This document shows positions 25 through 19,529 of a DNA stretch of 60,662 bases, in pieces. A model generated the notes under the pieces. It saw only the letters and a program-made list of their open reading frames with translations, ran no database searches and had not been told where the DNA came from. Within the stretch, counting starts at the first letter, position 1, and every line of letters begins with the position of its first letter. Source of the DNA: a virus; IMG/VR virus record IMGVR_UViG_3300025759_000100, positions 1 through 60,662 of that record; one strand, 5' to 3'. Both the position numbers and the translations under genes were made by a program.

Positions 25-3000
25 ATGAACGAAGAGTTGTTGAAAATAATTGAGGCTATGGAGGCTGCTAATGAACCAGCAGAGTCTATAGCAGCTGTAG
101 TACAGCAATACATGGCGGAGCAAGGCACGGATACGGCAGATACACCTGCTGCTGACGTTATGTCAGTTAGCCAGCGTGATGTAGATGCTGGTATAAAACC
201 AGAGTCGTATGTTAACTCTACTTACTGGAACACCTTAAGTGACGAAGTAGATAGATCCCAATATTATGATTCTGAAGGCAACTTTATAGCTAATGATTCT
301 CTTTTGTCCGACCCTCACTATAACCAAGCGTTACAGGAAGAGCAAACTCGTGAAACTATTGTGCGAGATTCTTCTGTAACTGGATTAACAGAGACTGAAA
401 AGAGGTACGATATTACAGAGGAAGACGAAAAAATTATTGAGTCTGAGGCTCTAAATGTGTACAACAATTACGCATCTAACAGTGAAGAGCTGGCTAATAT
501 ACCAGAAGACAACGTCGGTAGTGGTGACATGTTTGCTGGTATGATGAATGACATCGTAAGCGGTAGACTTAACGGTGTTTTACCTAGGAAGTTTAGACCT
601 GGTGGTAATGAATACGGTAAATTTTCAGCAAATCCTCGAGCGGTGTATGAAGCTTGGCTTAGAGAAAACACCAAAGACTCTGAATCTGTTCTCATGCAGA
701 ACATCAATCGCTTTGGTAAGTATCAAGATCTTGTTCTTAAATTTGCAAACGAAGGCTACCAAACAGATACTCAAATAAGAGAACAATCAGAAGCTAACGA
801 AATAAAGTACTTTAATACTAGACTACGTTTAGCTTTAAATAAATATTTAGAAGAAGCTTATGGTTCTGCTGACTCTGCTGAAGCTGAAGAGTTTTTAAAA
901 AACGCTGGTAACATCACATTAAAAGATATTAAAGACGATGTATACGGTACGAGAGGCAAGGGTAAGAGAAAACTTAAAGATATTTATGACGCTTTAGAAG
1001 GTACTGACGAGCTAAGATCAGAAATATTAGCTCAAGAAAACAGGGGTATAAGATCTAATCTTATTAAAAATAGAGCTAGTGAAATAGCTAAATCAACTGT
1101 AGAAGGCGGAACTTATGAAGGAAGTGCGCTAGCAGGTACGGGTGCTATTAACTCTATATTTGGTAAAACAGAACAGCAGTTAGCTATAATAGACGCCTCT
1201 GAAGAAGATTTTGCACAAATACAAGATGACGCTAAACAAAAAGCTATTGAAGGAGATTTAGTCCATCAACAGCTGAATGTCGTTAATGATAGGTTAAGTA
1301 GTTTAGCTTCTGAAATAAAAGATTTTGGAGACCCTAAAGAGTACATTAAATCTATTAAAGACAAATATGATTTAAATACAGAGCAAGGCATTAACGACGC
1401 TAATAAGGAGATACAGGATTTTATTGGTAAGTACACTAATTTAATAGACGAGTACAACGTAGCTCTAGATTCTTCTAAATCTTTGCATGATTCAGTAATA
1501 AAGGTCGGTGCTGAATTAGAGCAATTAAGTATTAGAGAGCAAGATCTTAATGCTTTTACTAATCAAATAAGTAAAAATCATAGAGTAGCTACTCAAATGG
1601 CTCTATCTTTCCACAACGGTATAGTTAGTCTTGGTGAAGGTGGTTTAGAGCTTGCTTACATGGTTAACCCTTTGGGTGCGCTAAGTGATGAACTTGTCGA
1701 CCTGTACGGTGAAGATTCTTTTGTAGATGCGGTTATTGAAACCGCAAGGTTCGCTACAGCTTTACCTACTGGTGGTATATCTTTATATTCAGGTGAACGC
1801 AGAGACAAGATCAGAGGGTCTATAGATGGTTACAAAAACCATGTTAACTCTCTAGTTGTAGAGCCTCCAAAATTCGATGACATAGATGGTTTTGGTAGTG
1901 CCGTTGAGTGGGCGTTGATTACAGGTGCTAGTCAAGCTCCGCAACTAGCTTTGCTCGCGGCTACTGGAGGTACCGCTGGTTTAATTATGATGGGCGGTAT
2001 ATCTGCAGGTAATAAATTTAGCGAGATGGACTCCGCTAGAGATTTATACAGAAGAACCGGTGGTATGTATGGGCAGAACCATAGTTTTGGTGAAATGTAT
2101 GCGGCGTCTCTTGCTTCGGGTACTATAGAAGCTTTATCTGAAAAAGTAACGTTAAACTTACTTAAAGGTACAGGAGGTATTAGCTCTAAGTTTTTATTCG
2201 GTGATATAGGTAAAAGAGCTGCTACTACTTTCTTGAGAAAAGACGTACTTAAAGTAGGTTTAAGAAGCACAGCAGCTGCTGGTTTAGATTTATTTGACGA
2301 AGGTGCTTCTGAAGCGCTAGCTCAAATGGGTGGTAACTACATTGATAGACTAGCCGGTGACAAAGAGATTGGTATATTCGACGGTGTTGATGAAGCGTTT
2401 GTTACAGGTGCTTTAATAGGCGGTACGTTATCTGCACCAACCTTGTTTAGAAACACTTACCGCGCTTTCCAAAGCGTTGAGGCATCTGACGTTCTAGATT
2501 CTAATAGAGCTAGAATACAAGAGCTAAACTCTATTATAAACGATCCAAACTCTACAGAAGAAACTGTAAGACAAGCTGAGGAAAACATACAAAGTTTAGT
2601 CGCGGAAAATGCAGAGCTAATAGCGTTTGATTTAAAACGCGTTGACTCGCTAAGCAAAGAGCAAAAAGCAGAGCTACTTAAAATAGACGAGTCTCAAAGA
2701 AACTTAGAGGTAAGGCTTTCTGAAATTGCAGCTTCTGAAGACTTGACTAAAGAGCAGAAAGAAAAGATTTATGCTGAAATGAACATCGGCTATAACAAAA
2801 ACCTTGCTCGTAAAAATCAAATACTAAAAAGCATACCTACAGATGAAGTTCTTAAAAACCACGAGAACGACATCAAACGCATAGAAGAAGAGAGTGCTAG
2901 GCTAGTTGCTGAAGGTGGACCTGCTATTAATGTAACTAGATCTAATGGGAAGAACGATGCTGATATTGCTAGTCAGTTTGAAGAGTGGAAGAACAGCGCT

Positions 3001-6000
3001 AAAAAAAGAGGTAACGTAAAGATAGCTGCGTCAGAAGACGGCACGCGAATTTACGGTGCTATGGTGCCTATATTAGACAATAGTGGTAAAGTTGTTAGCT
3101 ACGAGATGTTTTTTAATGATAAGAACATCTACGAAGATGGTGTCACTACTACTGGAACACACGAGCTTTTACATGCAGCTATATTCAACACTATACGAGC
3201 TAACCCTGTGTTAAGAAATAGATTTGGAGACGCTATTAATAGAATACTAGATGGTCCAGGCGTAAAGATATCTAAAAAAGCTCAAGAACAGTTAGATTTA
3301 TTAAACCAATACAGCAAAGAACAAAGAGGCGAAGAGTTGTTTGCTAAGGTTTCTGAACTAATGGTATCTGGTGATATAACAATTGACGGTGGTGCTGTGG
3401 GTAAGTTTAAAGATTTACTACGTAGAACGTCTATGCAAAATACAGATACTGACATTGTATTCGACGGAGACGTTGACGTTAGAAACTTTTTGAAAGACTA
3501 CTCAAGATCTAGAAAAAAAGGCATAGCTGACAAACGTATAACAAGCTTGTTTACTAAAGGAGCAAAAGGACGTATAGTAGAGCAACCTAAAACTAGAGAA
3601 GAAGCTAGAAGAGTTGTTGAAGGAAGACTAGAAGAAGCTCTAGAAGAAAGCTTTATGACTACACTGTCTGCTAGTATTAGATCTAATCCAGACCTACGTC
3701 AAGAGTTTGATCAGTTTACTAAAAACGAAGATGGAACTCCTAAGTATAAAACTCAACAGGAGTGGGAGAGCAGTCAAGACTACGTAGATGCATACCAAAA
3801 GATAGTAGAAAGTAACCTTCTAGATGGTTTAATTCAGACTAAGATGATAGAGCGCGGGGTGCCACCAGCTGCTCTTAGAGATTTTACTAGAAAGGTTAAA
3901 GAAAATATAGGTTTAAGATTCTTACCTACAGTAGATAAGAAAACAGGTAGAGTAAAACCTGATTCTGGTTATAGAATTTCAAATGATAGTTTGTTTGGCT
4001 GGTTAACAGGTGTTGCTGGTGGAGCTGGTCAATCCGTTATATACAGAGCCAAAGGTGACGTTATGAACGAGTATAAAGAAAGCGGTAATCTTGAAACTGT
4101 TTCTCTTGATGCTCCTATGGGTGAAACAACTACGTTTGAAGCTACTATAGAAGCTGAAACTGATGCGCTCATGCAGCAGCTTGAAGAAGCTGATTTAAGT
4201 AGAACTCGCGTAGAGCGTGAAGCTAGAAAACCAAAGAAAGTTGTTAATGAGCTAAACATTGACAGTGACGGTAAAGCCGCTATAAACAAAGCTGTAGCAG
4301 ATGCAGCCGTTGATATAGCTGGATTACAGTATAAAGACGTTAAAAAGCTTGGTAACTCTGTTGATGCGCCACTGTATAAAACACTACAAATCGTATCAGA
4401 AAAGTTCGGCGTAAATCCTAAAAACGTTATAAAATCTGCTAACTTAAACACTAAGCAGCGAAAAGCGGCGCAGCAGTTTATTAACGATAACGTAGAGTTT
4501 TTATTAGAAATGTTACCTGATGGTGAGACTAGAAGCGGAGAAGCTACTGGTGTACCTAGAGTGTTGTTAAATAATTTCTACGAAAAAGGTGAGAGATTAA
4601 AATATAAAGACGGAGCTACAGCTGCAGGTAAATTTACACAGCAAAAGCGAACTGATATAACACCCGAGCAGTTTAAAGAAGCTTTCGGTATTAGACCAGA
4701 TGGCACTCTAGATAACAATAGAAAATACGACAGCGCTATAAATGCTTTAGTTAATCAAGCTACTATGCTAGCCAACAATCAGGCTCTACGCGAACACGCT
4801 ATGAAAGAAGGTACTGCATCAGAAGCAGTAGTTGCTAAATTAGGTGAAGGTAAAGCTGAGGTAATGTTTAGTGTAAAGGTAAGAGATAACGTTAAGAACA
4901 CTTTCGATCAATTATACCCTGATCTAATAACAGCTGTAGCAGCATCTAATACTGGCGATATAGACTCTATAAGAGTAGCTGTTGAGTCTGTTTATGGTAA
5001 TGTACTTAGTACGTCTGAAATTAAAAGGCTAGTAAATGAAATATACGATCAAGCCGACGAGTACAACACTATAAACCAAAACCTTAAAGGTGTCGGTGTT
5101 GATGTGCCTGTGAGCTTAGAACAGTTTTTACAAGCTAAATACGAAAGCAATAACAGTGAAAAAGGTATATTAAAAGCATTAGAAGATAAGTTACCAAAAG
5201 ACGAATTAGGCAAAACAACAAGGATAGGCACTCATTTCTTAGATCTTGTAAGAATAAACAAGCAGCGAGCTGTACCAGGTTTGTTTGTCGCTGAAGCTAG
5301 AGCACTATTAGACAAAAAAGGAAATAGAATTTATTCGGATAAGCAAATAGCTGAAATGCTTATAGCTCACGCTATGCCTATGTTTGCTGGCTCGGGTAGA
5401 ATAGCTGATCGTAGATTTATTGTAGAAAAAAGAGAGCCAGACGGAGAAAGAGTTGTTGTTAAAGACCCCAATTGGAAACCTACTAAGAGAAATAAAAAAG
5501 GCCAAGAGGTACCTCAGAAAAATAGAAAACAAGCTTTTCAAAGCGTACCTGATTTTATCGCTGTACTTAACACTCTTGGTTTAGGTAAAATAGAAAAAGT
5601 TGGAAAAGGTTATACTCTTGATGGAGCTCCGTTAGATACTACGTTAATACCTGAAACATCAGAAGCTAGACTGTCAAGATCTAAGACAGAAAAGGCAAAA
5701 GCTGATTTATTTGAGAAAGGTAAAAAACAGGCTAAAGACGCAAGAGTTGTTACTAAAATAATATTAGACTCTCTATACGCTAAGGCTAATGACCCTAGTA
5801 GTAGTTACGACTATGCTGATTTTGCTATGACTTTAACTAGTCTTGGCTCGAATATGCAAGCGCCTATGAGACGAGCTGCTTTGTTCGAATATTTTATGGA
5901 AGGTGTTGAAGATGTAGTAGCTAATAGAGGTGATGCAAGCATTGGATCTGTTACTGAGTTTGAGCACTTAAAACCTCAAGAAGAAGCTATTGGAGAGATT

Positions 6001-9000
6001 ATACACTCTTACTTAACTACTGGTGAACTTGATATGCGTATATTTGAAGGCGGTGGACCTTATAGACCATACAAGACTGGCGTTATTAGCAAGAGCATGG
6101 ATAATGCGGTGACAGACGCTGGTCATAAGTTTATTTCTCCGAGATTAGGAAGAGGTGACAGCAGACAATACTCGTATGAAGCTATTGGCGATAGTAGAAT
6201 TAGACCTCTTAGAAGCATTGATCCAGCTAAAAAAGGTACTAACAAAGAGTTTATTGGTAGAGAGTGGGTTCAAATGAACGACGCTGTGTCAAGAGGTGAT
6301 GGTACTGTAATTAAAGATATGAGAGTGCTGCAAGGTATATTTGGAAATATATCTTTCTCGAAGCGACCTGCTAAAAACAAAGGGGCTAGCGTACTTGATT
6401 TTGATGACACATTAGCTACAACTAACTCTAGCGTGTTGTTTACTGCGCCTGACGGAACTAAAGGTAAGTTAAACGCAGAAGAGTATGCTAGAGATTACGT
6501 TGAGCTGCTTGGTCAAGGCTATGAGTTTGATTTCTCAGAGTTCAACAAGGTTGTTGACGGAGCGCCTGGACCTTTGCTTGATAAAGCTAAAAAATTAGCG
6601 AAGAAGTTTGGTACTGATAACATGTTTATCTTGACCGCTAGAGCACCACAGGCTCAAGAAGCTATATTCGAGTTTATGAAATCTCAAAGCTTAGAAATAC
6701 CTATTGACAACATCGTAGGCTTAGGTAATTCTACTGGTCAAGCTAAAGCTAACTGGATCGCTGAGAACTTAATAAAGGAAGGATACAATGATATGTACTT
6801 CGCGGATGATGCGTTACAAAACGTAGAGGCCGTTAAAGCTATGTTTGAGCTGTTTGATGTTAAGAGCAAAGTCCAGCAAGCTAAGGCTGAGTTTAGTAGA
6901 AGAGCGCCTAAGAAAATGGATGGTATCATCGATGAAGGCGCTGCTGATCTTGATTCAGACTTTAATATTATACTAGAGCAAACTAAAGGTGTAGCTAGAT
7001 TCAAGCAGTTCTCTGCTGGTAAAGCTAGACAACGTGGTAAAAACAAAGGTAGATTTAAATTCTTTATACCACCTTCAGCCGATGATTTTGCTGGTTTACT
7101 ATATAGCTTCATGGGTAAAGGTGAGATTGGTAACAAGCACCACGCCTTCTTCAAGAAGCATTTGTTCGATCCGTTTAGTAAAGGTGTTAGACTTTTAAAT
7201 AGAGTAAACCAAATAGCAGCTAATGATTTAAAGAACTTGCGTAAGTCTTTCCCTGATGTTCGCAGGAGCCTTAAAGATAAGTTGCCAGGGCTAGAGTACA
7301 CTACTGAAGATGCTATAAGAGTATACAACTGGAACAAGCAAGGATTTGATGTTCCAGGTTTATCACAGACAGATCTAAACGCTATTGTTAAAGCTGTTGA
7401 AGGTAACGCTAGCTTGAAAGCATTTGCTGATGGTGTTAGTAGAATTATTGTTGGAGAAGCTATTATGCCAGACGACTCTTGGTTAGGTGGTACTATAGCA
7501 TCTGATATTAACGATTCTCTTGAAAACGCTAGATCGACATACTTGCAAGAGTGGATAGATAATAAAAACGCTATATTCACTGAAGCTAACATGAATAAAA
7601 TTGAAGCTGTTTATGGCTCTAATTTTAGAGAGGCTTTAGAAGATGTGCTATTCCGTATGGAAAACGGTGGTAACAGATCTCAAGGTCAAGGTAGACTAAT
7701 GAACACCTTTACTAACTGGATACACGGATCTATTGGTACTACTATGTTCTTCAATGCAAGATCAGCTATGTTGCAGATGATTTCAAATGTTAACTTTATT
7801 AACTGGAGTGACAACAATATGTTAAAAGCAGCAGCTGCGTTTGCAAATCAAAAACAATACTGGTCTGATGTTGCTATGATATTTAACTCTGACTTCTTAA
7901 AGCAGAGAAGAGGTAGAATACAAACAGATGTTAACGCGGCAGAGCTACTAGCAGAGATACGTGATTCTAAAAACCCAATGAAGAAAGCTACGGCTTACCT
8001 TCTTCAATTAGGTTTTACACCGACGCAAATTGCGGATAGCTTTGCTATTGCAACTGGTGGTGCTACGTTCTATAGAAACAGAGTTGATTCGTATATCAAA
8101 GAAGGTATGTCTAAGAAAGACGCTGAAACAAAAGCGTTTGAAGATATGATGGAGATCGCTGAGGAAACTCAGCAGTCTACAAGAGAAGATAGAATATCTC
8201 AACAGCAGGCTTCACCTCTTGGTAAGTTTATACTGGCTTTCCAAAACACACCTATGCAGTACAATCGTTTGATTAAGAAAGCTGCTCAGGACTTAGTTAA
8301 CGGAAGAGGTGATGCTACAGCTAATGTCTCTAAGATCGTTTACTACGGTGCTATACAGAACATGATATTCTACGGGCTTCAGCAAGCTTTGTTCGCAGCA
8401 ATGTTCGGTGACGACGAAGAAGATAAGATCGATGACAAGCAGAAAGAGCGTATGATTAACGGTATGCTTGATACTGTATTAAGAGGTTCCGGTATTGGCG
8501 GTGCTGTTGTATCTACAACAAAGAACGTTATCTTGAAGTTCATGGAGCAAGAAGAGAAAGCTAAAGATGATAAGTTCTTCACTGAGCCAGATCACGCTTA
8601 CACTGTTATCGAGGCACTCAATATATCTCCACCGATCGGTATTAAAGCTAGAAAGCTATACAGCGCTTTGCAGTCTTGGGAGTTTAACAGAGAAGTTATC
8701 GATTACATGGACAAGACTGATATCGATAACCCAGTTTACGATGCGGTATTTAGCGCTACTGAGGCTGTTACAAACCTACCTTTATCAAGACTGTATAGCA
8801 AATACCAGAACTTGAAAGAAGCTGCTAACTCAGATCACGAAACGTGGAAGAGAGTAGCCATGCTACTGGGTTGGAGTAAGTGGAGCTTTGGTATTAAGAA
8901 CCAAGACGTGATGTCTGCTAAGAACGAGATTAAAGAAATCAAAGCTGAAGAAAGAGAAGAGCGTCAAGAGCAGAAAAAGCTCGAGCGACAGATAGCTAAA

Positions 9001-9270
9001 GACGAAGAAGAACGTCAAGTTATTGAAGATAACAAGCTTGATCAAGACGAAAAGAGAGAAGAAGGAGATGCAGAAGTTCAATGCGCTGCTGTTAGTAAAT
9101 CCGGTAAGCGATGTTCTAATATTGCTTTAGATGGTAAAAGCTTTTGCACGGTGCACGATGAAGTTCCTCAACAAGAAAACGAAGTTCAATGCTCACACAC
9201 AAAGAGTAACGGTGAGCGCTGTAAAATGAAAACTAAAAACAAATCAGGAAAATGTTACTACCACGATTAA
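25..9270 (+). CDS. Giant internal virion / DNA-ejection-type protein with protease-like, HAD and zinc-finger regions
   Basis: A 3081-residue protein, the largest in the window. Visible parts: an HELLH zinc-metalloprotease-type motif at residues 1046-1050; a HAD-phosphatase-like module starting with DFDDTL at 2125-2130, followed by an ILTAR motif and a YFADD acidic motif about 150 residues later; a long charged coiled-coil region near 2950-3015; and two tandem Cys/His fingers at about 3020-3044 and 3056-3080 (pattern C-x-n-C-x-n-C-x2-H). Alanine/glycine-rich hydrophobic stretches lie near residues 630-700. It follows the tail genes if the genome is circular, and marine podoviruses often place giant ejected or internal core proteins here. 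I infer that role; no RNA polymerase motif was seen. The first gene of the envelope cassette starts inside its 3' end. Confidence 0.75.
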   Translation: MNEELLKIIEAMEAANEPAESIAAVVQQYMAEQGTDTADTPAADVMSVSQRDVDAGIKPESYVNSTYWNTLSDEVDRSQYYDSEGNFIANDSLLSDPHYNQALQEEQTRETIVRDSSVTGLTETEKRYDITEEDEKIIESEALNVYNNYASNSEELANIPEDNVGSGDMFAGMMNDIVSGRLNGVLPRKFRPGGNEYGKFSANPRAVYEAWLRENTKDSESVLMQNINRFGKYQDLVLKFANEGYQTDTQIREQSEANEIKYFNTRLRLALNKYLEEAYGSADSAEAEEFLKNAGNITLKDIKDDVYGTRGKGKRKLKDIYDALEGTDELRSEILAQENRGIRSNLIKNRASEIAKSTVEGGTYEGSALAGTGAINSIFGKTEQQLAIIDASEEDFAQIQDDAKQKAIEGDLVHQQLNVVNDRLSSLASEIKDFGDPKEYIKSIKDKYDLNTEQGINDANKEIQDFIGKYTNLIDEYNVALDSSKSLHDSVIKVGAELEQLSIREQDLNAFTNQISKNHRVATQMALSFHNGIVSLGEGGLELAYMVNPLGALSDELVDLYGEDSFVDAVIETARFATALPTGGISLYSGERRDKIRGSIDGYKNHVNSLVVEPPKFDDIDGFGSAVEWALITGASQAPQLALLAATGGTAGLIMMGGISAGNKFSEMDSARDLYRRTGGMYGQNHSFGEMYAASLASGTIEALSEKVTLNLLKGTGGISSKFLFGDIGKRAATTFLRKDVLKVGLRSTAAAGLDLFDEGASEALAQMGGNYIDRLAGDKEIGIFDGVDEAFVTGALIGGTLSAPTLFRNTYRAFQSVEASDVLDSNRARIQELNSIINDPNSTEETVRQAEENIQSLVAENAELIAFDLKRVDSLSKEQKAELLKIDESQRNLEVRLSEIAASEDLTKEQKEKIYAEMNIGYNKNLARKNQILKSIPTDEVLKNHENDIKRIEEESARLVAEGGPAINVTRSNGKNDADIASQFEEWKNSAKKRGNVKIAASEDGTRIYGAMVPILDNSGKVVSYEMFFNDKNIYEDGVTTTGTHELLHAAIFNTIRANPVLRNRFGDAINRILDGPGVKISKKAQEQLDLLNQYSKEQRGEELFAKVSELMVSGDITIDGGAVGKFKDLLRRTSMQNTDTDIVFDGDVDVRNFLKDYSRSRKKGIADKRITSLFTKGAKGRIVEQPKTREEARRVVEGRLEEALEESFMTTLSASIRSNPDLRQEFDQFTKNEDGTPKYKTQQEWESSQDYVDAYQKIVESNLLDGLIQTKMIERGVPPAALRDFTRKVKENIGLRFLPTVDKKTGRVKPDSGYRISNDSLFGWLTGVAGGAGQSVIYRAKGDVMNEYKESGNLETVSLDAPMGETTTFEATIEAETDALMQQLEEADLSRTRVEREARKPKKVVNELNIDSDGKAAINKAVADAAVDIAGLQYKDVKKLGNSVDAPLYKTLQIVSEKFGVNPKNVIKSANLNTKQRKAAQQFINDNVEFLLEMLPDGETRSGEATGVPRVLLNNFYEKGERLKYKDGATAAGKFTQQKRTDITPEQFKEAFGIRPDGTLDNNRKYDSAINALVNQATMLANNQALREHAMKEGTASEAVVAKLGEGKAEVMFSVKVRDNVKNTFDQLYPDLITAVAASNTGDIDSIRVAVESVYGNVLSTSEIKRLVNEIYDQADEYNTINQNLKGVGVDVPVSLEQFLQAKYESNNSEKGILKALEDKLPKDELGKTTRIGTHFLDLVRINKQRAVPGLFVAEARALLDKKGNRIYSDKQIAEMLIAHAMPMFAGSGRIADRRFIVEKREPDGERVVVKDPNWKPTKRNKKGQEVPQKNRKQAFQSVPDFIAVLNTLGLGKIEKVGKGYTLDGAPLDTTLIPETSEARLSRSKTEKAKADLFEKGKKQAKDARVVTKIILDSLYAKANDPSSSYDYADFAMTLTSLGSNMQAPMRRAALFEYFMEGVEDVVANRGDASIGSVTEFEHLKPQEEAIGEIIHSYLTTGELDMRIFEGGGPYRPYKTGVISKSMDNAVTDAGHKFISPRLGRGDSRQYSYEAIGDSRIRPLRSIDPAKKGTNKEFIGREWVQMNDAVSRGDGTVIKDMRVLQGIFGNISFSKRPAKNKGASVLDFDDTLATTNSSVLFTAPDGTKGKLNAEEYARDYVELLGQGYEFDFSEFNKVVDGAPGPLLDKAKKLAKKFGTDNMFILTARAPQAQEAIFEFMKSQSLEIPIDNIVGLGNSTGQAKANWIAENLIKEGYNDMYFADDALQNVEAVKAMFELFDVKSKVQQAKAEFSRRAPKKMDGIIDEGAADLDSDFNIILEQTKGVARFKQFSAGKARQRGKNKGRFKFFIPPSADDFAGLLYSFMGKGEIGNKHHAFFKKHLFDPFSKGVRLLNRVNQIAANDLKNLRKSFPDVRRSLKDKLPGLEYTTEDAIRVYNWNKQGFDVPGLSQTDLNAIVKAVEGNASLKAFADGVSRIIVGEAIMPDDSWLGGTIASDINDSLENARSTYLQEWIDNKNAIFTEANMNKIEAVYGSNFREALEDVLFRMENGGNRSQGQGRLMNTFTNWIHGSIGTTMFFNARSAMLQMISNVNFINWSDNNMLKAAAAFANQKQYWSDVAMIFNSDFLKQRRGRIQTDVNAAELLAEIRDSKNPMKKATAYLLQLGFTPTQIADSFAIATGGATFYRNRVDSYIKEGMSKKDAETKAFEDMMEIAEETQQSTREDRISQQQASPLGKFILAFQNTPMQYNRLIKKAAQDLVNGRGDATANVSKIVYYGAIQNMIFYGLQQALFAAMFGDDEEDKIDDKQKERMINGMLDTVLRGSGIGGAVVSTTKNVILKFMEQEEKAKDDKFFTEPDHAYTVIEALNISPPIGIKARKLYSALQSWEFNREVIDYMDKTDIDNPVYDAVFSATEAVTNLPLSRLYSKYQNLKEAANSDHETWKRVAMLLGWSKWSFGIKNQDVMSAKNEIKEIKAEEREERQEQKKLERQIAKDEEERQVIEDNKLDQDEKREEGDAEVQCAAVSKSGKRCSNIALDGKSFCTVHDEVPQQENEVQCSHTKSNGERCKMKTKNKSGKCYYHD

Positions 9271-10295
9271 GTTTATTATTAACCTTACTATTTAGCTGCA
9301 CAGTACTGCAAGCTCAAGAGTTAAAGAAAGCATTTAAGTTTTCTACATTCTACGCGGCTGTTAACGGAGGTAACTCCGTATCAGATCAAACAGTATACTC
9401 AATACTTGACGGTTTGAACGAGGAAGTTATATCAACACCGTTTGACTACAGCTTATCTATTGGTGTACGTAAGATCGCTAGGTTTGGTTATGAAAACAGA
9501 GCCAACGCTTTCTACGACGGAACAGAAACATCGTGGTCTGCTGATGCTAACATCGGTAAGCGCAACGGTATAGAGTTCCTTGGAGAGGTTACATACGAAA
9601 GACAGCAAGGCCGAGAGTTCTTCAACCAACACCACTTTTTTCGCTACATTGGAGATAAGTTCATGGCAAAGGTTGAATACCTTGAAGACGGGTTTGCAGA
9701 TGTTGGGTACTTTGAAGGATCACAAAGATATAGACTTAAGCTCGGTAAAAAGTTCTCTCTTCACGCAGGTATCGCACAACGTATCTCAGAGCCTTACGGA
9801 TATGATCCACTTGAAGAGTGGAGACTTTCAAACGGAGATATTCACTACACTTACCTCGCACTTGAGGAAGGATATACACACGACCTTGTTACAGGCGAGT
9901 ACCTCGCTCCTGACGGAACAATCGTTGCAACAAGCACTGAAGTCTGGGAAGCAGTCACTATCCCTGAGATCTTATCTGAATACACTGCTAGAAAAAGAAA
10001 TGAACTCACTGATCAATGGAATTACTCGTTGGTTGCCGGATACGACTTCTATCACTTTACAGACGACTTCTGGTTCCACTCATGGGGAAACATTTTACCC
10101 TATCATTACGACACTGGAGGTGAATATATGTATCACAATACGGTAGATGGACAATGGTTAGATTACTCTGGTGGTTTGATTTTTGGTAAGAAGTTTAAGA
10201 AAAGCTTAGGAGTATTTCTCGAAGGTAGATATTACAAGTACTGGAACAGAGAGTGGTACAACTTTAAGTGTGGTGTAAACTATGTAATCTTTTAA
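9252..10295 (+). CDS. Secreted outer-membrane beta-barrel-like protein
   Basis: 347 residues. It starts with a clear signal peptide (MLLPRLSLLLTLLFSCTVLQ, cleavage expected before the Q of AQELK). The mature part has many short alternating hydrophobic/polar stretches rich in Y, W, F and G, and ends in ...GVNYVIF with a terminal aromatic residue, as outer-membrane barrels do. The ATG lies within the last codons of the giant gene (19-nt overlap), so the two are probably translated together. It opens a run of four exported or membrane proteins. I recall similar proteins in uncultured marine phages, without a known function. A role in changing the host outer membrane is inference; a tail-associated role is less likely given the signal peptide. 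Confidence 0.7.
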   Translation: MLLPRLSLLLTLLFSCTVLQAQELKKAFKFSTFYAAVNGGNSVSDQTVYSILDGLNEEVISTPFDYSLSIGVRKIARFGYENRANAFYDGTETSWSADANIGKRNGIEFLGEVTYERQQGREFFNQHHFFRYIGDKFMAKVEYLEDGFADVGYFEGSQRYRLKLGKKFSLHAGIAQRISEPYGYDPLEEWRLSNGDIHYTYLALEEGYTHDLVTGEYLAPDGTIVATSTEVWEAVTIPEILSEYTARKRNELTDQWNYSLVAGYDFYHFTDDFWFHSWGNILPYHYDTGGEYMYHNTVDGQWLDYSGGLIFGKKFKKSLGVFLEGRYYKYWNREWYNFKCGVNYVIF

Positions 10296-10298
10296 GAT

Positions 10299-10583
10299 AT
10301 GGCAAAACAAATAGGTGAGGATACTAAAGTAACATTAGACCTCAAAACAATCGGTATGGCATCAGCAGGTTTAGCTGCTTTAATTGGTATGTACTTTACG
10401 CTACAAGCTGATATAGCTTTAGCAAAAGAATTACCTGAACCACTTCCACCAGACGTAACTCGCATGGAGTTTGACATGAAAGATAAGCTAGTACGTCAGA
10501 CCATTATGACAACGCAGGAGGACGTATCAGAACTTAAAGAAGATCTTGATCGTATCGAAGAAAAAATTGACAAACTAAAATAG
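10299..10583 (+). CDS. Small membrane-anchored coiled-coil protein
   Basis: 94 residues. One membrane segment (about residues 17-36, MASAGLAALIGMYFTLQAD) is followed by a proline-rich linker (ELPEPLPPDV) and a C-terminal charged coiled coil (SELKEDLDRIEEKIDKLK). It starts 3 nt after the barrel-protein stop. The topology would suit a spanin-like or holin-accessory protein, or an inner-membrane partner of the neighbouring secreted proteins. Nothing in the sequence decides between these. The gene is clear; its function is unknown. Confidence 0.75.
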   Translation: MAKQIGEDTKVTLDLKTIGMASAGLAALIGMYFTLQADIALAKELPEPLPPDVTRMEFDMKDKLVRQTIMTTQEDVSELKEDLDRIEEKIDKLK

Positions 10584-10585
10584 TT

Positions 10586-10954
10586 ATGGAAGAGACATTG
10601 AACTTCAAAACTGTGTTAACATACATACTGTTAATGCTGTTTATGCTTGTTGGCGGAACAGTGCTAAGTCAAAACATGTGTAACAGCGATATTTGTGTAG
10701 TACAGTTTAACGCTGGTTGGAACGAGGCTAATGGAGTAGATTATCTAGATGATCTAAAAGACTGCAGTGTTATGAACGTTAATATCGAAGATGGCACTTA
10801 CCAAGCTGACTATGATATTGTAGTTGTACCTACTATCATAGTATTTAACGGTAAAGAGATCGAAAGATTTCAAGGTAATATTATGATGAAGATAGAAGCT
10901 ACGCGCAAAGAAGTACAAAGTGTAGTTGATGAAATTATATATAGTGATTTTTAA
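10586..10954 (+). CDS. Exported thioredoxin-fold protein without the CXXC active site
   Basis: 122 residues. An N-terminal signal/anchor (hydrophobic 10-27, cleavage likely at TVLS-Q) precedes a thioredoxin-like domain. The strand/active-site region reads VVQFNAGWNEANG (about 38-50), where a normal thioredoxin has W-C-x-x-C; here W45 is followed by NEAN. The cis-proline region is conserved as VVVPTIIVFNGKEIERFQG (79-97, P82). Other cysteines (C32, C37, C60) could form a structural disulfide. Without CXXC it should not be a classical disulfide oxidoreductase. A binding or chaperone role in the periplasm is inference. It abuts the T9SS cargo gene downstream with no gap. Confidence 0.75.
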   Translation: MEETLNFKTVLTYILLMLFMLVGGTVLSQNMCNSDICVVQFNAGWNEANGVDYLDDLKDCSVMNVNIEDGTYQADYDIVVVPTIIVFNGKEIERFQGNIMMKIEATRKEVQSVVDEIIYSDF

Positions 10955-13168
10955 ATGAAGAAGTTAGGATACATTTTTGTAATACTGTTTTGGCTTTTAG
11001 CTAGTGCAGTACTGGGTCAGGGTAGCTGGCTAGACGTAGCTGTACAAGTTGATCAATACCCAAATGAAACTTCGTGGGTAATTATGCAAGACGATAGCAT
11101 TCTTGTAACAAGCCCGCAGTATCAGCCTAATCAATATCTAACTACACCAGTGTTTTTACCTGCAGGTGATTACACTTTTATCATTAGTGATACTTTTGGT
11201 GACGGTATATGTTGTGAGTTCGGACAGGGTAACTACGAGTTAAAGAACTTCTGCGGACTATACGAAGCAAACTTTGAGTTCAACGCAGCCGCAGACACAA
11301 TTGACTTTACTCTCGAGCCTTGCGACGTGCCGGTGTTTGGTTGCATGAACGAGTTGGCTAACAACTTCAACCCATGGGCTAATATAGATAACGGCAGTTG
11401 TAACGTTGTATCGTGTAACGAAGATCAGGCTTTAGTGACTATGGAGCTAACTCTTGATACTTGGCCTAACGAAACTGGATTCACTCTAGTGAACTTATCA
11501 AACGGACAGCCTTACCATGAGGTGCTTGTTAACGAGTATAACTTCGGTGATCAAATGCTAACATACACATATGACTTCTGTGTAGAACTAGGCTTTGAGT
11601 TAATCTTATACGACTTATTTGGTGACGGACTAAACGGTTCTGCGTCAGGCGGTCAGGATGGGGCGTGCGTAATTACTTCATGTGACAGTATTCTATGGGA
11701 GCTTGAGGACTTAGCTTTTGAAGAGTGGGATGGTATTGTTATGTACTCTGGTCCTATATTCACTGAGCCATGTGAGCCTGAACCAGATGTAGTTGGCTGT
11801 ATGGATGACGACTACGTAGATTACAACCCACTTGCTACGATTCAAGACACTTGTATGACATTACACACTTGGGGTTGTATTGATCCTACAGCCTTGAACT
11901 ACGATAGCTTAGCTACTATAGCAGACTACGCTAGCCCTTGTACTCTTGAGATTATACTTGAGGATGACGCTGGTGATGGATGGGGAGCATCCACCATCGG
12001 TATGGTGCAAGGCGATCAGCAGTGGTTGTTTAGTATGGCACCTGGTGAGTTTGTTCATACGTGGGAGCTAACGCTAGACTCTGATGAAGAGGTTGATGTG
12101 TACTACTTTCAAGCTGGTACTCAGCAACAGTCGCCGCAAGAACTTGCTTTTCAGACGCTTCATAACTCTATATTAGTATTAAATGCTAATGGAGACACAC
12201 TACTAAACGAAGGAGATAATCCATTTATGAACAATGGTCAAAGCGCTTTACAGCCTTTCTCTACTCCAGAGTGGACTATATATAACTTTACACCTTTCTG
12301 CGGCGATGGTTGTATACCTCATATCTATGGCTGCACTGATCCTTTAGCTTGCGACTATAACGAAGAAGCTAATACTAACACTGAGTGTACATATCCTGTA
12401 GAATACTACGACTGCATGAATCACTGTATCAACGACACGGATGGTGATGGCATTTGTGATGAACTAGAAATAGTAGGTTGTCAAGACCCAACAGCTTTTA
12501 ACTACGATGCTACAGCCACAGACCCTGGTGAGTGTATTGAAGTTGTGTTTGGCTGTACTGATCCTACAATGTTCAATTATAACCCTGAAGCCAACGTAGA
12601 CAACGGTAGCTGTATTGAGATTATTTATGGTTGTATGGACCCACTAGCTCTAAACTACGACGAAGATGCTAACACCGACAACGGTAACTGCATCGACCCA
12701 GTAGCTGGTTGCATGGATGTAGACGCTTATAACTTTGAACCACTCGCTAATGTAGCAGATAACGAAAGCTGCTTATACGAAGCTGTTGGTTGCGTGAGTG
12801 GTGTTGGTGAACCTTACGGCGATGGCTTCTGGCTTAACGATGATTGTTATGCTTGGGTTATTGAAGCTGATCCATATTGCTGTGAAGAAGCTTGGGATGC
12901 TACTTGCCAAGCAACATATGACTACTGTAGTGTAACAGGTATAGAATCCGTGCTAGCTGGCGAAGACTTAATTGTCTACCCAAACCCAGTGGGCAACGTG
13001 TTAAACATAAATCAAAACGTTGACGTAGACGTGATCGATTCAAATGGGCGTATCATAGTATCTAAAACAAATACGAACGCGATAGACGCGTCCCTATGGC
13101 CTCCAGGAATGTATATGGTACGTATTATTTGGAACGGTCGCGTCGTCGTCAATAAAGTTGTTAAATGA
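10955..13168 (+). CDS. Secreted repeat protein with type IX secretion (T9SS) C-terminal sorting domain
   Basis: 737 residues. Signal peptide MKKLGYIFVILFWLLASAVL, cleaved before Q. Eight copies of a cysteine repeat, pattern G-C-x-D-x(2-3)-A-x-N-Y-x(2)-x-A-x(4)-G-x-C, begin at residues 129, 281, 307, 459, 508, 533, 559 and 585. Three DxxGDG-type segments and one calcium-binding-type segment (DTDGDGICDE) lie between them. The last 70 residues match a type A T9SS sorting domain: YPNP at 675-678, a central G-x-x-x-x-S strand, PGMYMVRI and terminal KVVK. Known family role: such domains direct export through the Bacteroidetes type IX machinery to the cell surface. I infer surface display of a phage protein on the infected cell. 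ATGA overlap with the next gene. Confidence 0.85.
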   Translation: MKKLGYIFVILFWLLASAVLGQGSWLDVAVQVDQYPNETSWVIMQDDSILVTSPQYQPNQYLTTPVFLPAGDYTFIISDTFGDGICCEFGQGNYELKNFCGLYEANFEFNAAADTIDFTLEPCDVPVFGCMNELANNFNPWANIDNGSCNVVSCNEDQALVTMELTLDTWPNETGFTLVNLSNGQPYHEVLVNEYNFGDQMLTYTYDFCVELGFELILYDLFGDGLNGSASGGQDGACVITSCDSILWELEDLAFEEWDGIVMYSGPIFTEPCEPEPDVVGCMDDDYVDYNPLATIQDTCMTLHTWGCIDPTALNYDSLATIADYASPCTLEIILEDDAGDGWGASTIGMVQGDQQWLFSMAPGEFVHTWELTLDSDEEVDVYYFQAGTQQQSPQELAFQTLHNSILVLNANGDTLLNEGDNPFMNNGQSALQPFSTPEWTIYNFTPFCGDGCIPHIYGCTDPLACDYNEEANTNTECTYPVEYYDCMNHCINDTDGDGICDELEIVGCQDPTAFNYDATATDPGECIEVVFGCTDPTMFNYNPEANVDNGSCIEIIYGCMDPLALNYDEDANTDNGNCIDPVAGCMDVDAYNFEPLANVADNESCLYEAVGCVSGVGEPYGDGFWLNDDCYAWVIEADPYCCEEAWDATCQATYDYCSVTGIESVLAGEDLIVYPNPVGNVLNINQNVDVDVIDSNGRIIVSKTNTNAIDASLWPPGMYMVRIIWNGRVVVNKVVK

Positions 13169-14217
13169 TTAAGTGGATAGGTCAACATATATGGGATTTT
13201 GTTTCAAGGTTTAGAAACAAGGTTATACTCGAAGATTTAACAGAATCAACTGAAGAGTACACCATAATGGTTACGACAAGTGGTGAGCTTGTTAAAAGCA
13301 CTCACCCTATGGAAAGATCAAGACTTCAGATTAGAAACGATGAAGGCTCAACTATACCAGCTGGAGCTCCACTGTATTCCAAAGGTGAAATTGGTGGTAG
13401 CGAAAGAATCAAGGTTGGTATAGCTGATGCTAATGATGCTAGCAAGATGCCGTGTATAGGTGTTGCTGAAGCTGAAATGAATACATCTTCTACTAAAGAT
13501 AATTTTGCTATATCACAAGGTGTTTTTAATACCAACATATCTGGCTTTACAGGGTTATCTGATGGTGATATATTATATGTTGATGACTCTGGTTCAACTC
13601 CTTATTTAACTCAAAATAAATCTGACATAACTGGTAGTGCTAACAAAATACAAAACGTAGGTATTGTTCTTAAAACAAATGGTACTATATGCCAAGGCCT
13701 TTTAGTATCAGCAATTGGTAGAACTAATGACGTACCGAATCTCGATAGTGGTAATATATTTTATGGAGACACCGGTAATCAAGCCACAACAATATCGTTA
13801 AATAGCGTGCTTGGTTGGCATGGATCAACAACTAGAATAAAGATATTACCATCAGACTTTGTAGCTGACGACGTTGGTAGACCTGTTATGATAAACGACA
13901 GTAGCATCGGAAGTAGTTCTGTGCACTTAAAAACATTTGGTTCTGCATCGGCTTTTGTTTGCGTGAACATACCAACTGGTTATAAAGCAACTCATGCTAT
14001 GATTCACGGTAGTGATACATCTCAAAACTACAAAGTATACGAAGCAAACATCAACTCAAGCACTGTAACATCTAAATCTAGTGCGACAAGCATTGGTACT
14101 GAAGCTGATATAACAGATGTCACAAGTAGTACAACGAACTATTTACTTATAGAAGTTCTATCAGACGGAGAAACTGACGAGTTTTATGGAGGCTACGTAA
14201 CTATAACAAGTGTATAA
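13165..14217 (+). CDS. Phage fibre/appendage-type structural protein
   Basis: 350 residues. The start ATG overlaps the preceding stop (ATGA). The N-terminus MIKWIGQHIWDFVSRFRNKV is followed by an ILEDL segment typical of phage fibre attachment regions. The rest is rich in T, S, G and N with many short beta-type stretches, as in appendage proteins. No enzymatic motif and no signal peptide are visible, unlike the four genes before it. The call rests on composition and on position between the envelope and lysis genes. A host-binding fibre is the most likely role but is not proven. Confidence 0.6.
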   Translation: MIKWIGQHIWDFVSRFRNKVILEDLTESTEEYTIMVTTSGELVKSTHPMERSRLQIRNDEGSTIPAGAPLYSKGEIGGSERIKVGIADANDASKMPCIGVAEAEMNTSSTKDNFAISQGVFNTNISGFTGLSDGDILYVDDSGSTPYLTQNKSDITGSANKIQNVGIVLKTNGTICQGLLVSAIGRTNDVPNLDSGNIFYGDTGNQATTISLNSVLGWHGSTTRIKILPSDFVADDVGRPVMINDSSIGSSSVHLKTFGSASAFVCVNIPTGYKATHAMIHGSDTSQNYKVYEANINSSTVTSKSSATSIGTEADITDVTSSTTNYLLIEVLSDGETDEFYGGYVTITSV

Positions 14218-14693: not shown

Positions 14694-14999
14694 ATGCAAT
14701 TATTTAACATAACAAGTCTTACAACTACAACTCTAGTAGCTCTGTACAAAGAACAGAATAGCATTGAGTCAATACACATGGCTAATACACACGCTAGCAC
14801 TGATGTTAGAATACAATTGTTTTTAGAAGACGAGTCTGCTAATAAGTACTACTTACTTAGAACTGATATACCAGGTTTGACTACGTTAGTGTTTGATGAC
14901 GGTATAACATTTGACAATAGTTCATTTAGCTTAAAGCTAACAACTCAAACGTCGGCTGACATAAGTGCGACAGATCCTTTAACAGTAATAGTAAAATAA
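14694..14999 (+). CDS. Small beta-rich protein, probably structural
   Basis: 101 residues, predominantly beta-type sequence with no cysteine, membrane segment or enzymatic motif. It begins 27 nt after the previous stop and its own stop overlaps the peptidase start (TAATG). Not recognised. The position next to fibre genes suggests a minor virion component. Confidence 0.5.
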   Translation: MQLFNITSLTTTTLVALYKEQNSIESIHMANTHASTDVRIQLFLEDESANKYYLLRTDIPGLTTLVFDDGITFDNSSFSLKLTTQTSADISATDPLTVIVK

Positions 15000-15460
15000 T
15001 GGATAATATAAGTGATCATATAAGTTATAGAGAAGCCACTCGTTCAAACACTGCTTTACGTAGAGGTATCGATAATATACCTGACGTTGAAGAGCTTGAG
15101 AACATGAAGCTAATAGCTGAAAAAGTTTTTGAGCCGCTGCGTAAACATGTCGGTGGTCCTATTAAAATAAATAGTTTTTACAGATCACCTGAGCTAAACG
15201 TAGCTATCGGTGGTAGTAAAAACTCTCAACACTGTAAAGGTCAAGCTATCGACCTTGATGATACATATGGGCATAAAAGCAATGCTGCAATGTTCCAATG
15301 GATGCGCTATCACCTAGATTATGATCAAATGATCTGGGAGTTTGGTGACGATAAAAACCCAGCGTGGATACACGTTAGTTACGTATCAGAAGAAGAGAAC
15401 AGACACAGGTGTCTTAAAGCTGTTAAGAAGAACGGTAAGACACATTACGAATTAATGTAA
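14999..15460 (+). CDS. Peptidase M15-family endolysin-type enzyme
   Basis: 153 residues, a compact M15A-type zinc D-Ala-D-Ala carboxypeptidase/endopeptidase fold. The family signature SQHCKGQAIDLD gives zinc ligands H78 and D85. A WEF segment has an acidic residue at E114, and PAWIHVSY supplies the third ligand H125. FYRSPELN at 60-67 matches the conserved arginine region before the signature. The family cuts peptide cross-bridges in peptidoglycan, so this is the best candidate lysis enzyme. It has no signal peptide, so it would need a holin (see 39316-39744). TAATG overlaps on both sides. Confidence 0.88.
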   Translation: MDNISDHISYREATRSNTALRRGIDNIPDVEELENMKLIAEKVFEPLRKHVGGPIKINSFYRSPELNVAIGGSKNSQHCKGQAIDLDDTYGHKSNAAMFQWMRYHLDYDQMIWEFGDDKNPAWIHVSYVSEEENRHRCLKAVKKNGKTHYELM

Positions 15461-17663: not shown

Positions 17664-19529
17664 TTATGTAACCTCACACGATCCGCCTGCGCAAGCTAGC
17701 TCACCAGAGAGATCTGTATTATCCTCGGTCTCCATTACATTTGATAAGTCAACAGTATCTAGCGACTTAACCATTTCATTGAATTTAGTTTTAGTAATGT
17801 CCTCAAATGGCGCTTGAGTATATGTACCACCGTTATATGGTAGAACAGATAAACCGTTATAGTACTCCCTGTTCTTCCACATCCACTCACCAGCTTCTTC
17901 CCACTCATTAGCTTTTAAACTAATGGTAGCAGAAACATTGTGAGTGTTTGAACCGTTCCTGTGTCCAGATGAAACCCAGTCTATTGATACTGCCTTTACT
18001 CTTTCAAGTAAATCAAAAGCAGATTCAGTTCTTACAATAGAACCTTCAGGTGCCGCTTGCGGTACACTGATCACTGCTGTATCATGAGGTCTGAAGTATT
18101 CATCTTCGATTAACTCAGGATGGTTATTAACTAGGTAAGAATAAATAGCTTCATTCTTACCAACTCGTAGTCTACGCACGTAATGCTTGTTATGCCAAGC
18201 GTGTATACCAGATGATGTACCCAGTACTAGAGATGTGGTACCAGCTGGCTTAACACATGTTGTACGTGCAGCTTTGTTGATACCTATGAGCTTTGCAACT
18301 CTACTGTTTTCGCGCTTAACAATATCAGCGGCTTTCTTCATATCAAGATTCATAACCTTGTTAGAGCCGATACCTGTCATTGACACGCCGATCAAAGCGT
18401 CTTTCTCAGTTGTATCTTTCCATACTTCACGTAAGTAGTGGAAGTCTGTATAACCAGCTTGCAACGTACCTATGAAGGCAGCAACTTTAACTCTAGCGTT
18501 TAAATCATCTTGATCAACTATATCTGATACGTTAACCTCACATAAGTTACAGAACTGATAAGGACGAAGAGCAATCTCACAGCATGGGTTTGTTCCCCAG
18601 TCCTTATCATTGTTTAGGTAGATACCTGGTTCACCAGCTCCTGATGCTTCAACTCTTTTCCACAGATCCATAAAGAACTCTTTCTTAACTTTATGTCTCA
18701 TTAACACGGCAGAGTTGTTAGCTCTACCACGCTGAGGGTTAAGCTCCCACCAGTTACCTGACTTACAAGAGATCATCTCTTCATCCGTTGCACTAAATAA
18801 TGATATGAGTGCTGCACGTCGAATCCCACCAGCCAGAACAGCATCTGCGATGTGACAAATGATATCGTGTACTTCAAGACTTGAAAGTTGTGTTCCATCT
18901 TCTTTATCATCTAGTATACCTTTGATTTTAACTAAACACTCTTTGAGTGGCTGTGGGCCAGGAGCTTTACCTCCTGACGTCACTAGCCTTGCACCTTTAG
19001 GTCTGATGTCTGAGAAGTCAAACTTCACCTTAGAACATCTACGACCACCGAGGTACGACTCAATAAGTACCTTCACACTGTCAGCCCAACCTTCAATACT
19101 GTCACCGATTACAAATCTTCTCTCTCGTTTTTCAAAAGGCTTGATGACGAAAGGAAGCTTTCTAACGTGGTGATTCTGGACTGAATAGCCAACACCACAT
19201 CCCGATAATAGTAAGAACATAGTTTCACTGAAACTATCAATGTGATCAACGGGAAGGTAACTACAGTTGTAAAGACGATTAGGAGAAATCTCAATAGGCT
19301 TTCCACTAAACTGAAGAGATCGCATCGACGGCAGAACCTTTTTGTTGTAAACCATTTCATAAGCTTCTTCTATTTGTTGCTTCAGATCTGGATATTTCTT
19401 AACATGCATCTCTTTGTTACGCGTAACTAACTCTCCCCACGTTTCTCTTCTGTTAAGCTCAGGTATATACTTGGCATACTTCATATGCACTGTAATATCT
19501 GATAAAATATCTCTACTGATCTGGCTCAT
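17664..19529 (-). CDS. nrdJ: Class II (adenosylcobalamin-dependent) ribonucleotide reductase
   Basis: 621 residues, monomeric NrdJ/RTPR type. Features seen: YNCSY with the first redox cysteine C89; NPCCEIALRPYQFCNLCEV at 314-332 with thiyl cysteine C316, catalytic E318 and the second redox cysteine nearby; PAGTTSLVLGTSSGIHAWH, the conserved C-terminal barrel segment; and a tail CAGGSC (C613, C618) that recycles the active-site disulfide. The enzyme makes deoxyribonucleoside triphosphates without oxygen but needs vitamin B12 cofactor from the cell. It is about 120 residues shorter than the Lactobacillus enzyme. It is the last gene of the minus-strand replication operon. Confidence 0.93.
   Translation of the reverse strand: MSQISRDILSDITVHMKYAKYIPELNRRETWGELVTRNKEMHVKKYPDLKQQIEEAYEMVYNKKVLPSMRSLQFSGKPIEISPNRLYNCSYLPVDHIDSFSETMFLLLSGCGVGYSVQNHHVRKLPFVIKPFEKRERRFVIGDSIEGWADSVKVLIESYLGGRRCSKVKFDFSDIRPKGARLVTSGGKAPGPQPLKECLVKIKGILDDKEDGTQLSSLEVHDIICHIADAVLAGGIRRAALISLFSATDEEMISCKSGNWWELNPQRGRANNSAVLMRHKVKKEFFMDLWKRVEASGAGEPGIYLNNDKDWGTNPCCEIALRPYQFCNLCEVNVSDIVDQDDLNARVKVAAFIGTLQAGYTDFHYLREVWKDTTEKDALIGVSMTGIGSNKVMNLDMKKAADIVKRENSRVAKLIGINKAARTTCVKPAGTTSLVLGTSSGIHAWHNKHYVRRLRVGKNEAIYSYLVNNHPELIEDEYFRPHDTAVISVPQAAPEGSIVRTESAFDLLERVKAVSIDWVSSGHRNGSNTHNVSATISLKANEWEEAGEWMWKNREYYNGLSVLPYNGGTYTQAPFEDITKTKFNEMVKSLDTVDLSNVMETEDNTDLSGELACAGGSCEVT

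Follow-up and report, generated by a model that had tools for sequence, protein, structure and literature searches.

A putative type IX secretion cargo gene within a conserved four-gene unit of uncultured phages

The window, by which we mean the whole stretch of DNA analyzed here, is the 60,662-base virus record IMGVR_UViG_3300025759_000100 of IMG/VR, and the gene in question, which we call T9, had been described in an initial annotation as phage-borne cargo of the type IX secretion system (T9SS). Translation of the open reading frame (ORF) agrees with that annotation in giving a product of 737 residues. T9 is the last of four closely spaced genes in the order OMP-TMC-TRX-T9, each gene following the one before it after 3, 2, and 0 bases, respectively. 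The four genes, and the parts of T9, are as follows.

9252-10295, + strand: OMP, a predicted outer-membrane beta-barrel protein of 347 residues with a signal-peptide-like start (AlphaFold2 model, fold matches)
10299-10583, + strand: TMC, 94 residues, with one predicted membrane segment and then a coiled-coil-like tail (alignment A3, hydropathy)
10586-10954, + strand: TRX, 122 residues, with a signal-peptide-like start and a thioredoxin fold without CxxC (profile A2, alignment)
10955-13168, + strand: T9, the putative T9SS-tagged cargo gene, 737 residues (ORF translation, TIGR04183, PF18962)
11021-11314, + strand: beta-rich domain 1 of T9, residues 23-120, of the YPNETSW ... FGDGICC type (AlphaFold2 model, limits hand-drawn)
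11429-11758, + strand: beta-rich domain 2, residues 159-268 (AlphaFold2 model)
11939-12289, + strand: beta-rich domain 3, residues 329-445 (AlphaFold2 model, with pLDDT, the predicted local distance difference test score, below 50 at residues 422-430 and 437-439)
12329-12787, + strand: main run of GCxD Cys repeats, residues 459-611 (motif count)
12800-12937, + strand: helical Cys domain (YCC..WD..C....Y.YC), residues 616-661 (model, conserved columns in alignment A4)
12974-13165, + strand: T9SS type A C-terminal sorting domain, residues 674-737 (TIGR04183, PF18962, fold superposition)
10955-11017, + strand: signal-peptide-like region of T9, residues 1-21, followed by Q22 (hydropathy and comparison of homologues)

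The C-terminal motifs of T9 lie where they had been placed (YPNP at residues 675-678, PGMYMVRI at 717-724, and KVVK at 734-737), and profile searches bore out the assignment of this region to the type A sorting domains: residues 674-737 matched TIGR04183 with an E value of 1.2e-11 and 44.4 bits, against a cut-off of 23, and T9 matched PF18962 with an E value of 2.6e-10 and 40.9 bits, against a cut-off of 27. T9 gave the sole TIGR04183 match in the 60,662-base record. In the predicted model the tail adopts the Ig-like C-terminal fold of type A cargo, and it superposes on C-terminal domains (CTDs) from the T9SS complex (8gl6_D, Z 8.7, root-mean-square deviation 1.9 over 66 residues; 8glk_D, Z 8.6) and on the CTD of RgpB (5ag8, Z 8.6); the T9-family profile also matches solved CTDs by sequence. 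Because DUF3244 proteins match the tail model equally, with scores up to Z 9.2, the Ig-like fold alone is not diagnostic of a T9SS tail. The claim that T9SS occurs only in Bacteroidetes finds agreement in the available text of one report, which describes the system as exclusive to Bacteroidota (PMC12618676), but the profile alone is an imperfect marker of the phylum, since in a control on 14 named genomes TIGR04183 matched Deinobacterium chartae as well as Bacteroides ihuae, one of the two above the cut-off.

The start of T9, MKKLGYIFVILFWLLASAVLGQ, reaches a 10-residue hydropathy maximum of 3.11. By the same rule, signal-peptide-like starts were found in 158 of 164 T9 homologues, all 146 OMP proteins, and 138 of 146 TRX proteins, as compared with 92 of 641 neighboring ORFs. 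The rule is rough and lets membrane anchors pass as well, the one-segment membrane protein TMC among them in 109 of 141 cases. By this rule T9 has a candidate for the N-terminal Sec signal peptide of type A cargo, which the initial annotation had also proposed.

The AlphaFold2 model of T9, made from 51 homologues (mean pLDDT 76.1; predicted template-modeling score, pTM, 0.36), consists of beta-rich domains, Cys repeats, a small helical Cys domain, and the tail. Neither Pfam nor NCBIfam recognized an enzyme or binding domain in the protein, and a fold search with the body gave no trustworthy match outside the tail; a likeness of beta-rich domain 2 to CBM60 was weak (Z 6.2 over 85 residues) and was not relied on. 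The eight GCxD repeats described initially hold when counted loosely, while a strict count gives seven plus one GCMN, against a mean of 0.28 and a maximum of 3 in 2000 shuffles of the protein. Similar repeats occur in long ORFs of genomes from the order of a metagenome-assembled genome (MAG), titled Flavobacteriales, to which we return below as the L166 MAG; the T9 profile (A4; A2 and A3 are those of TRX and TMC) matches 52 of 60 genomes of this order, the best matches listed lying mostly in the repeats; unlisted ones may be tails. GCxD-type repeats were also seen in ORFs of 1156-2974 residues in four related phages (G246, G247, G249, and G258), and they recur in Synechococcus phage S-CAM3, where one of four records is annotated as a virion structural protein. 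Given their presence in long ORFs of related phages and in S-CAM3, the repeats are not diagnostic of export.

The gene that opens the unit, OMP, has a signal-peptide-like start and a barrel in its AlphaFold2 model, as outer-membrane beta-barrels do. The model is of moderate confidence (pLDDT 70.1, pTM 0.64); the fold matches listed (Foldseek, VIA) were nearly all outer-membrane barrels, the best including Tsx (Z 12.8), NanC, and OmpG (both 12.4). The window OMP matched no NCBIfam family at E 1, and among 48 OMP members no credible Pfam family and no shuttle family was found at E 0.1; scattered Pfam matches (SH3_5 in 17 of the 48, best E 0.0019, and others) were taken as chance. At four loci (L482, L484, L485, and L486) OMP starts with a lipoprotein-like signal and then a double Cys (e.g., ISCATPKKCCAQ), and some members of the family may therefore have a lipidated barrel. 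Members of the TMC alignment are 59-99% identical to the window copy; the coiled coil was judged by eye and the membrane segment by hydropathy, and PHROG matches were weak only, the commonest (34 and 30 of 35 members) being to families of unknown function. The TRX profile matches thioredoxin structures (best E 9.9e-7, by sequence profile), and the catalytic CxxC is absent from its alignment, W/F-N-x-x-N standing at that place. None of the four window proteins matched a PADLOC defense family at E 1. Median ratios of nonsynonymous to synonymous substitution (dN/dS) among close relatives were 0.089 for T9 (20 usable of 21 pairs), 0.063 for OMP, 0.062 for TRX (median dS 1.86, near saturation), and 0.060 for TMC; medians of 0.06-0.09 in all four genes therefore indicate that these genes are kept working under strong purifying selection.

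The initial annotation missed the constancy of this gene company. Scans return the best 80 relatives each (the IMG/VR scan with T9 gave 132, of which the best 80 were kept), and near relatives accordingly dominate the counts; loci were counted if they had at least 4 kb on both sides, duplicates were removed, the sets share contigs, and the gene profiles used in the counts derive from these very loci. All four genes were found together at 44 of 44 T9-anchored, 38 of 38 OMP-anchored, 44 of 44 TMC-anchored, and 44 of 45 TRX-anchored loci. The exception, L315, has TMC-TRX, but its whole 50,429-base record is without OMP and has only repeat matches to T9. A further scan, begun from the divergent OMP of L166, yielded all four genes at 37 of 37 loci, the query locus included and some contigs being shared with the earlier sets. 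The same company of genes recurs in well over a hundred sequences of related, uncultured phages. Their flanks vary greatly: the unit lies variously beside a giant gene and a fiber gene, between terminase-portal on one side and scaffold-capsid on the other, beside a giant gene and a holin, or beside ribonucleotide reductase and a holin (the names of flank clusters were partly assigned by eye). On these grounds, we consider it highly likely that the four genes work as one unit.

A bacterial origin of the unit was rejected: of 196 genomes from the order of the L166 MAG, one had a match to the OMP profile, and this match lay on the phage contig itself. L166 itself adjoins genes for a UvsX-like recombinase, a DnaB-like helicase, and ribonucleotide reductase. 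Over residues 14-359 its OMP shares 96% identity with an OMP on a 158,183-base contig. A scan of genome contigs gave six OMP loci, five of them with other unit genes or a giant phage gene adjoining; a 40-residue OMP match at L169 was taken as chance. Two records hold more than one OMP locus: a 245,646-base IMG/VR record has two about 119 kb apart (L398 and L400), and an 82,425-base record also has two (L513 and L515). Among 123 non-redundant loci only three gene orders occur (69, 29, and 25 loci), all rotations of one circle. We made nothing of this pattern and set it aside, because with TMC-TRX as one block it has by our own arithmetic a chance of about 1 in 10, and because L541 breaks the rule in three-gene form.

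The same tag, as a search of other phages showed, is widespread in the family. TIGR04183 matched in the whole records of 36 of 44 relatives, 33 of them above the cut-off; of the eight without a match, seven have a short tail instead, and L146 is apparently cut by the contig end, to judge from its position. By eye, all the 3'-complete T9 homologues inspected end in a sorting tail, type A or short (last 70 residues), and most open with a hydrophobic stretch (first 25 residues); L027, L043, and L066 are among several whose mechanical start lies upstream, so that this stretch falls outside the residues inspected. A strict pattern finds the short tail, typically ITDILGRP...LLFFIYDDGTVEKK, in place of the type A tail in 16 of 164 proteins, and a looser one finds it at 22 of 154 loci; this tail escapes TIGR04183. 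The 42 of 51 homologues that match the tail profile do not give a frequency, because nine short-tail sequences were added to that set on purpose.

Body and tail of T9 have partly separate histories. We compared their identities over 164 distinct T9 proteins (13,366 pairs). L002, which matches the window T9 at 100%, is 91% identical to L003 in the body and 32% in the tail, whereas it is 42% identical to L089 in the body and 97% in the tail. In 443 pairs the bodies share 75% identity or more, and 67 of these pairs have tails of 35% identity or less; conversely, in 235 pairs it is the tails that share 75% or more, and 60 of these pairs have bodies of 55% identity or less. These comparisons indicate that the sorting tail is exchanged among phages as a module. 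The tails are not freely shuffled, since body and tail identity correlate over all pairs (Spearman 0.40).

The short tail is also found in bacteria: among 60 genomes from the order of the L166 MAG, 17 carry it, with as many as 40 copies in a single genome. The 11 of these 17 that were tested all encode SprA as well as 25-64 type A tails. Five genomes that have no short tail were tested too; SprA was found in three of them, and the other two lack both SprA and type A tails. We read this as phages copying the address labels used by their hosts, a reading drawn from sequence comparison, and we infer that the short tail may itself be a T9SS signal and that short-tail phages may infect short-tail hosts. 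At four loci (L042, L056, L049, and L074) a second, shorter sorting-tailed protein (411-521 residues) follows T9 directly in tandem, and the cargo can therefore be doubled. A 252-residue, secreted-looking protein between OMP and TMC (L482:1971-2729) ends in another short tail, IYNINGQ..GLYIEDGKIKYKLK, of a type present in 3 of the 60 genomes.

That T9 is a phage gene, as annotated, is borne out by the recognition of terminase, portal, holin, and endolysin by PHROGs in the same record. The window terminase resembles those of 87 GenBank records, from phages of Flavobacterium (68), Cellulophaga (15), Tenacibaculum (2), and Maribacter (1) and one unassigned Manatee Spring genome, the closest at 64.6%. 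By this resemblance the record is an uncultured relative of the Flavobacterium and Cellulophaga podoviruses, and its host is a probable Bacteroidota bacterium. Two further genes lie near the unit.

13165-14217, + strand: tail-fiber-like gene, directly 3' of T9 and outside the conserved unit (the proteins matched by tblastn are mostly annotated as tail fiber-like)
14999-15460, + strand: endolysin, a neighbor (phrog_894, E 3.6e-28)

Elsewhere the window carries a GroEL gene (35937-37508; phrog_5725, E 4.9e-135), a likely adenosylcobalamin-dependent ribonucleotide reductase gene (17664-19529, - strand; TIGR02505, 275.8 bits, under the curated cut-off of 340), and two giant ORFs (25-9270, 3081 residues; 52366-60219, 2617 residues), the first of which closes with Cys/His-rich repeats that resemble zinc knuckles when judged by eye (DUF5763 matched weakly, E 0.0075).

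The tag and the tail model together make it very likely that T9 is phage-encoded type A cargo, to be exported through the T9SS of the host, and we think it probable, leaving purpose aside, that T9 is so exported and acts with its three envelope neighbors. T9 would leave the cytoplasm by Sec, directed by its signal peptide, and its Cys-rich body would fold in the periplasm; the SprA/PorV translocon of the host would recognize the C-terminal domain, the tail would be cleaved, and T9 would be displayed on, or released from, the outer surface. The predicted locations of its neighbors would cover the layers of the envelope, with TMC in the inner membrane, TRX in the periplasm, and OMP in the outer membrane. 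On the plainest reading, and if the presumed timing is right, the unit would remodel the outer surface of the infected cell late in infection, where T9 could mask the surface and so block adsorption by rivals or the loss of progeny to debris. Of the purposes considered we favor masking for T9, tentatively and at less than even odds. It fits an exported, variable outer part: mean pairwise identity is 47.6% in the T9 body and 33.8% in its tail, as against 62.6% in OMP and 67.1% in TMC.

Several observations weigh against this account. TRX, with a mean identity of 49.8%, varies almost as much as the body of T9, so that variability does not single out the outermost part and supports masking weakly, and the lysis genes near the unit fit a function in exit as well as they fit masking. 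In the GenBank phage collection, neither OMP nor TRX had a tblastn match and TMC-TRX DNA had no blastn match, for which reason no cultured member is known. Finally, part of the family does without T9. From a scan with the window terminase (best 80 loci) we took 16 records of at least 30 kb and added the L315 record and two GenBank genomes, giving 19 records, most of them fragments. OMP was present in eight of the 19, once as a 46-residue scrap, and TIGR04183 matched in none of the 19; genuine pieces of T9, cut by contig ends, were found in G242 and G248. G257 (68.7 kb) has OMP-TMC-TRX and G251 has OMP, each with no A4 or TIGR04183 match anywhere in the record. A scan with three divergent OMPs gave 63 distinct loci; the 30 with full flanks all had TMC and TRX, but in the 5 kb of flank searched none of them had T9 or a type A tail. 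In two GenBank genomes, that from Manatee Spring and elemovirus 6-3D, the first 50,000 bases (of 60,850 and 59,846, respectively) gave no match to OMP, TMC, or TRX at E 10, and the whole records are without OMP and T9. The 30 divergent loci, together with G257 and G251, rule out T9 as an indispensable part, as does the lack of a TIGR04183 match in the 19 records; because the divergent loci keep the trio without T9, we regard OMP-TMC-TRX as the wider core and T9 as belonging to one large branch. The trio might, though we hold this doubtful, be a new envelope-spanning machine of Bacteroidota phages that acts late, in which a rod in the inner membrane is combined with a periplasmic thioredoxin that is redox-dead and with a barrel in the outer membrane, the T9 branch extending it outside and the tail being swapped to suit the dialect of each host.

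No less and no more credible, in our estimation, is that OMP-TMC-TRX serves phage exit by opening the outer membrane, or weakening it, at lysis, with TMC having the topology of an inner-membrane spanin, OMP serving as the outer partner, TRX as a link or timer, and T9 as a surface add-on that aids release or dispersal. TMC does have one membrane segment ahead of its coiled-coil-like tail. Genes of PHROG-recognized lysis families (holin, M15-type endolysin, peptidoglycan-binding endolysin, and amidase) lie at most two genes from the unit at 30 of 55 three-gene loci and 40 of 117 T9 loci; the holin-like cluster c2 (77 residues), so judged by eye, has no PHROG match and was left out of these counts. 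Per gene, they make up 45 of 220 at a distance of one or two genes in the three-gene set and 41 of 468 in the T9 set, as compared with 2 of 564 and 17 of 933 further away, a contrast that is inflated because the families and profiles were chosen from those very positions. Conversely, no such family lies within two genes at 77 of the 117 T9 loci and 25 of the 55 three-gene loci, and in one context the unit stands between genes taken by eye for portal and capsid. There is also no convincing spanin profile, the Rz-like phrog_7686 matching 1 of 35 TMC members (E 0.054) and phrog_739 matching the window copy at E 0.18.

T9 might instead change the attachment of the infected cell to particles or neighbors, as an adhesin or in nutrient capture, and not shield it from phages. 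We think this unlikely; its Cys repeats do resemble those in long ORFs of the order of the L166 MAG, and nothing specific speaks against it, apart from the lack of any enzyme or binding domain recognized by Pfam or NCBIfam.

It is harder still to credit that OMP is a phage shuttle for T9, in the way that PorP/SprF serve type B cargo in Flavobacterium. With the body held constant, OMP covaries with the tail at 0.36 over 123 loci, more than it does with the body when the tail is held constant (0.21). Split by gene order, however, the OMP-tail value is 0.54 and 0.49 in the two orders that place OMP after the tail and 0.17 where TMC and TRX intervene, the last reached by 2 of 300 permutations. The T9SS complex chain 8gl6_F, which we assume to be PorV, is among the fold matches of OMP (Z 10.0, rank 27), yet the higher-ranked matches are the generic barrels Tsx, NanC, and OmpG, with other generic barrels tied with it. 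The barrel is also kept at the divergent loci where no T9 is near. OMP follows the cargo at 94 of 123 non-redundant loci, as porP/sprF-like genes commonly do, and type A tails use the PorV of the host, both according to the available text of PMC12618676. Because the covariation mostly tracks adjacency and linkage, and because no shuttle profile matches OMP (at E 1 the window protein had no NCBIfam match at all), we do not claim a shuttle role. That T9 is a virion protein whose tail is a by-product of domain shuffling, as the GCxD repeats in long ORFs of related phages and in S-CAM3 (including the virion structural protein) and the fiber-like gene after T9 could suggest, is the least credible reading and very improbable, given the signal-peptide-like start of 158 of 164 homologues, the sorting tail on all 3'-complete homologues inspected, and the exchange of tails while the body stays.

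If the preferred reading is true, namely T9 as exported type A cargo acting with its envelope neighbors, many uncultured Bacteroidota phages use the T9SS of their hosts as an export line of their own, swapping labels for each host, which would strongly indicate that T9SS cargo in phages has a function and is more than a stray domain. The type of label could help to narrow the hosts of uncultured phages, and the three-gene core is a specific candidate for the means by which these phages deal with the outer membrane. Among the openly licensed papers listed, judged by titles and abstract openings, none describes the four-gene unit, which is weak evidence of novelty, as subscription journals and preprints fall outside that search. 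The idea of phage T9SS cargo is not new, and the initial annotation overlooked its earlier proposals; the four-gene setting appears new.

A 2020 report on Cryophage described T9SS cargo encoded by a phage and proposed that the host machine is hijacked, perhaps for superinfection exclusion (PMC7468147), and a 2019 report noted T9SS sorting domains in a BACON-bearing cluster of gut phages (PMC6949934). These are, like T9, phage genes that end in T9SS sorting domains; T9 differs from what is described there in being a repeat protein without a recognized enzyme domain and in belonging to a fixed four-gene unit with diverse flanks. The likeness to spanins lies in the membrane and coiled-coil parts of TMC and in its nearness to holin or endolysin genes at many loci. 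Unlike spanins, the trio has a barrel as its outer partner and a thioredoxin-fold protein in addition, and no spanin profile matches it convincingly. We take the abbreviation 'USP' to mean unimolecular spanin. Bacteroidetes phages exclusively use 'USP', in the words of the available part of one report (PMC12596118). With the PorP/SprF shuttles, as presented in the available text of PMC12618676, T9-OMP shares the placing of a cargo gene beside an outer-membrane protein gene, whereas, unlike type B cargo, the T9 family has type A or short tails, its OMP lacks a profile match, and the covariation mostly follows adjacency. With host type A cargo (TIGR04183 proteins and the CTDs of RgpB, NucA, and RemA) T9 shares its C-terminal profile and predicted fold; unlike that cargo, T9 is borne by a phage, and some of its relatives carry instead the short tail that TIGR04183 misses.

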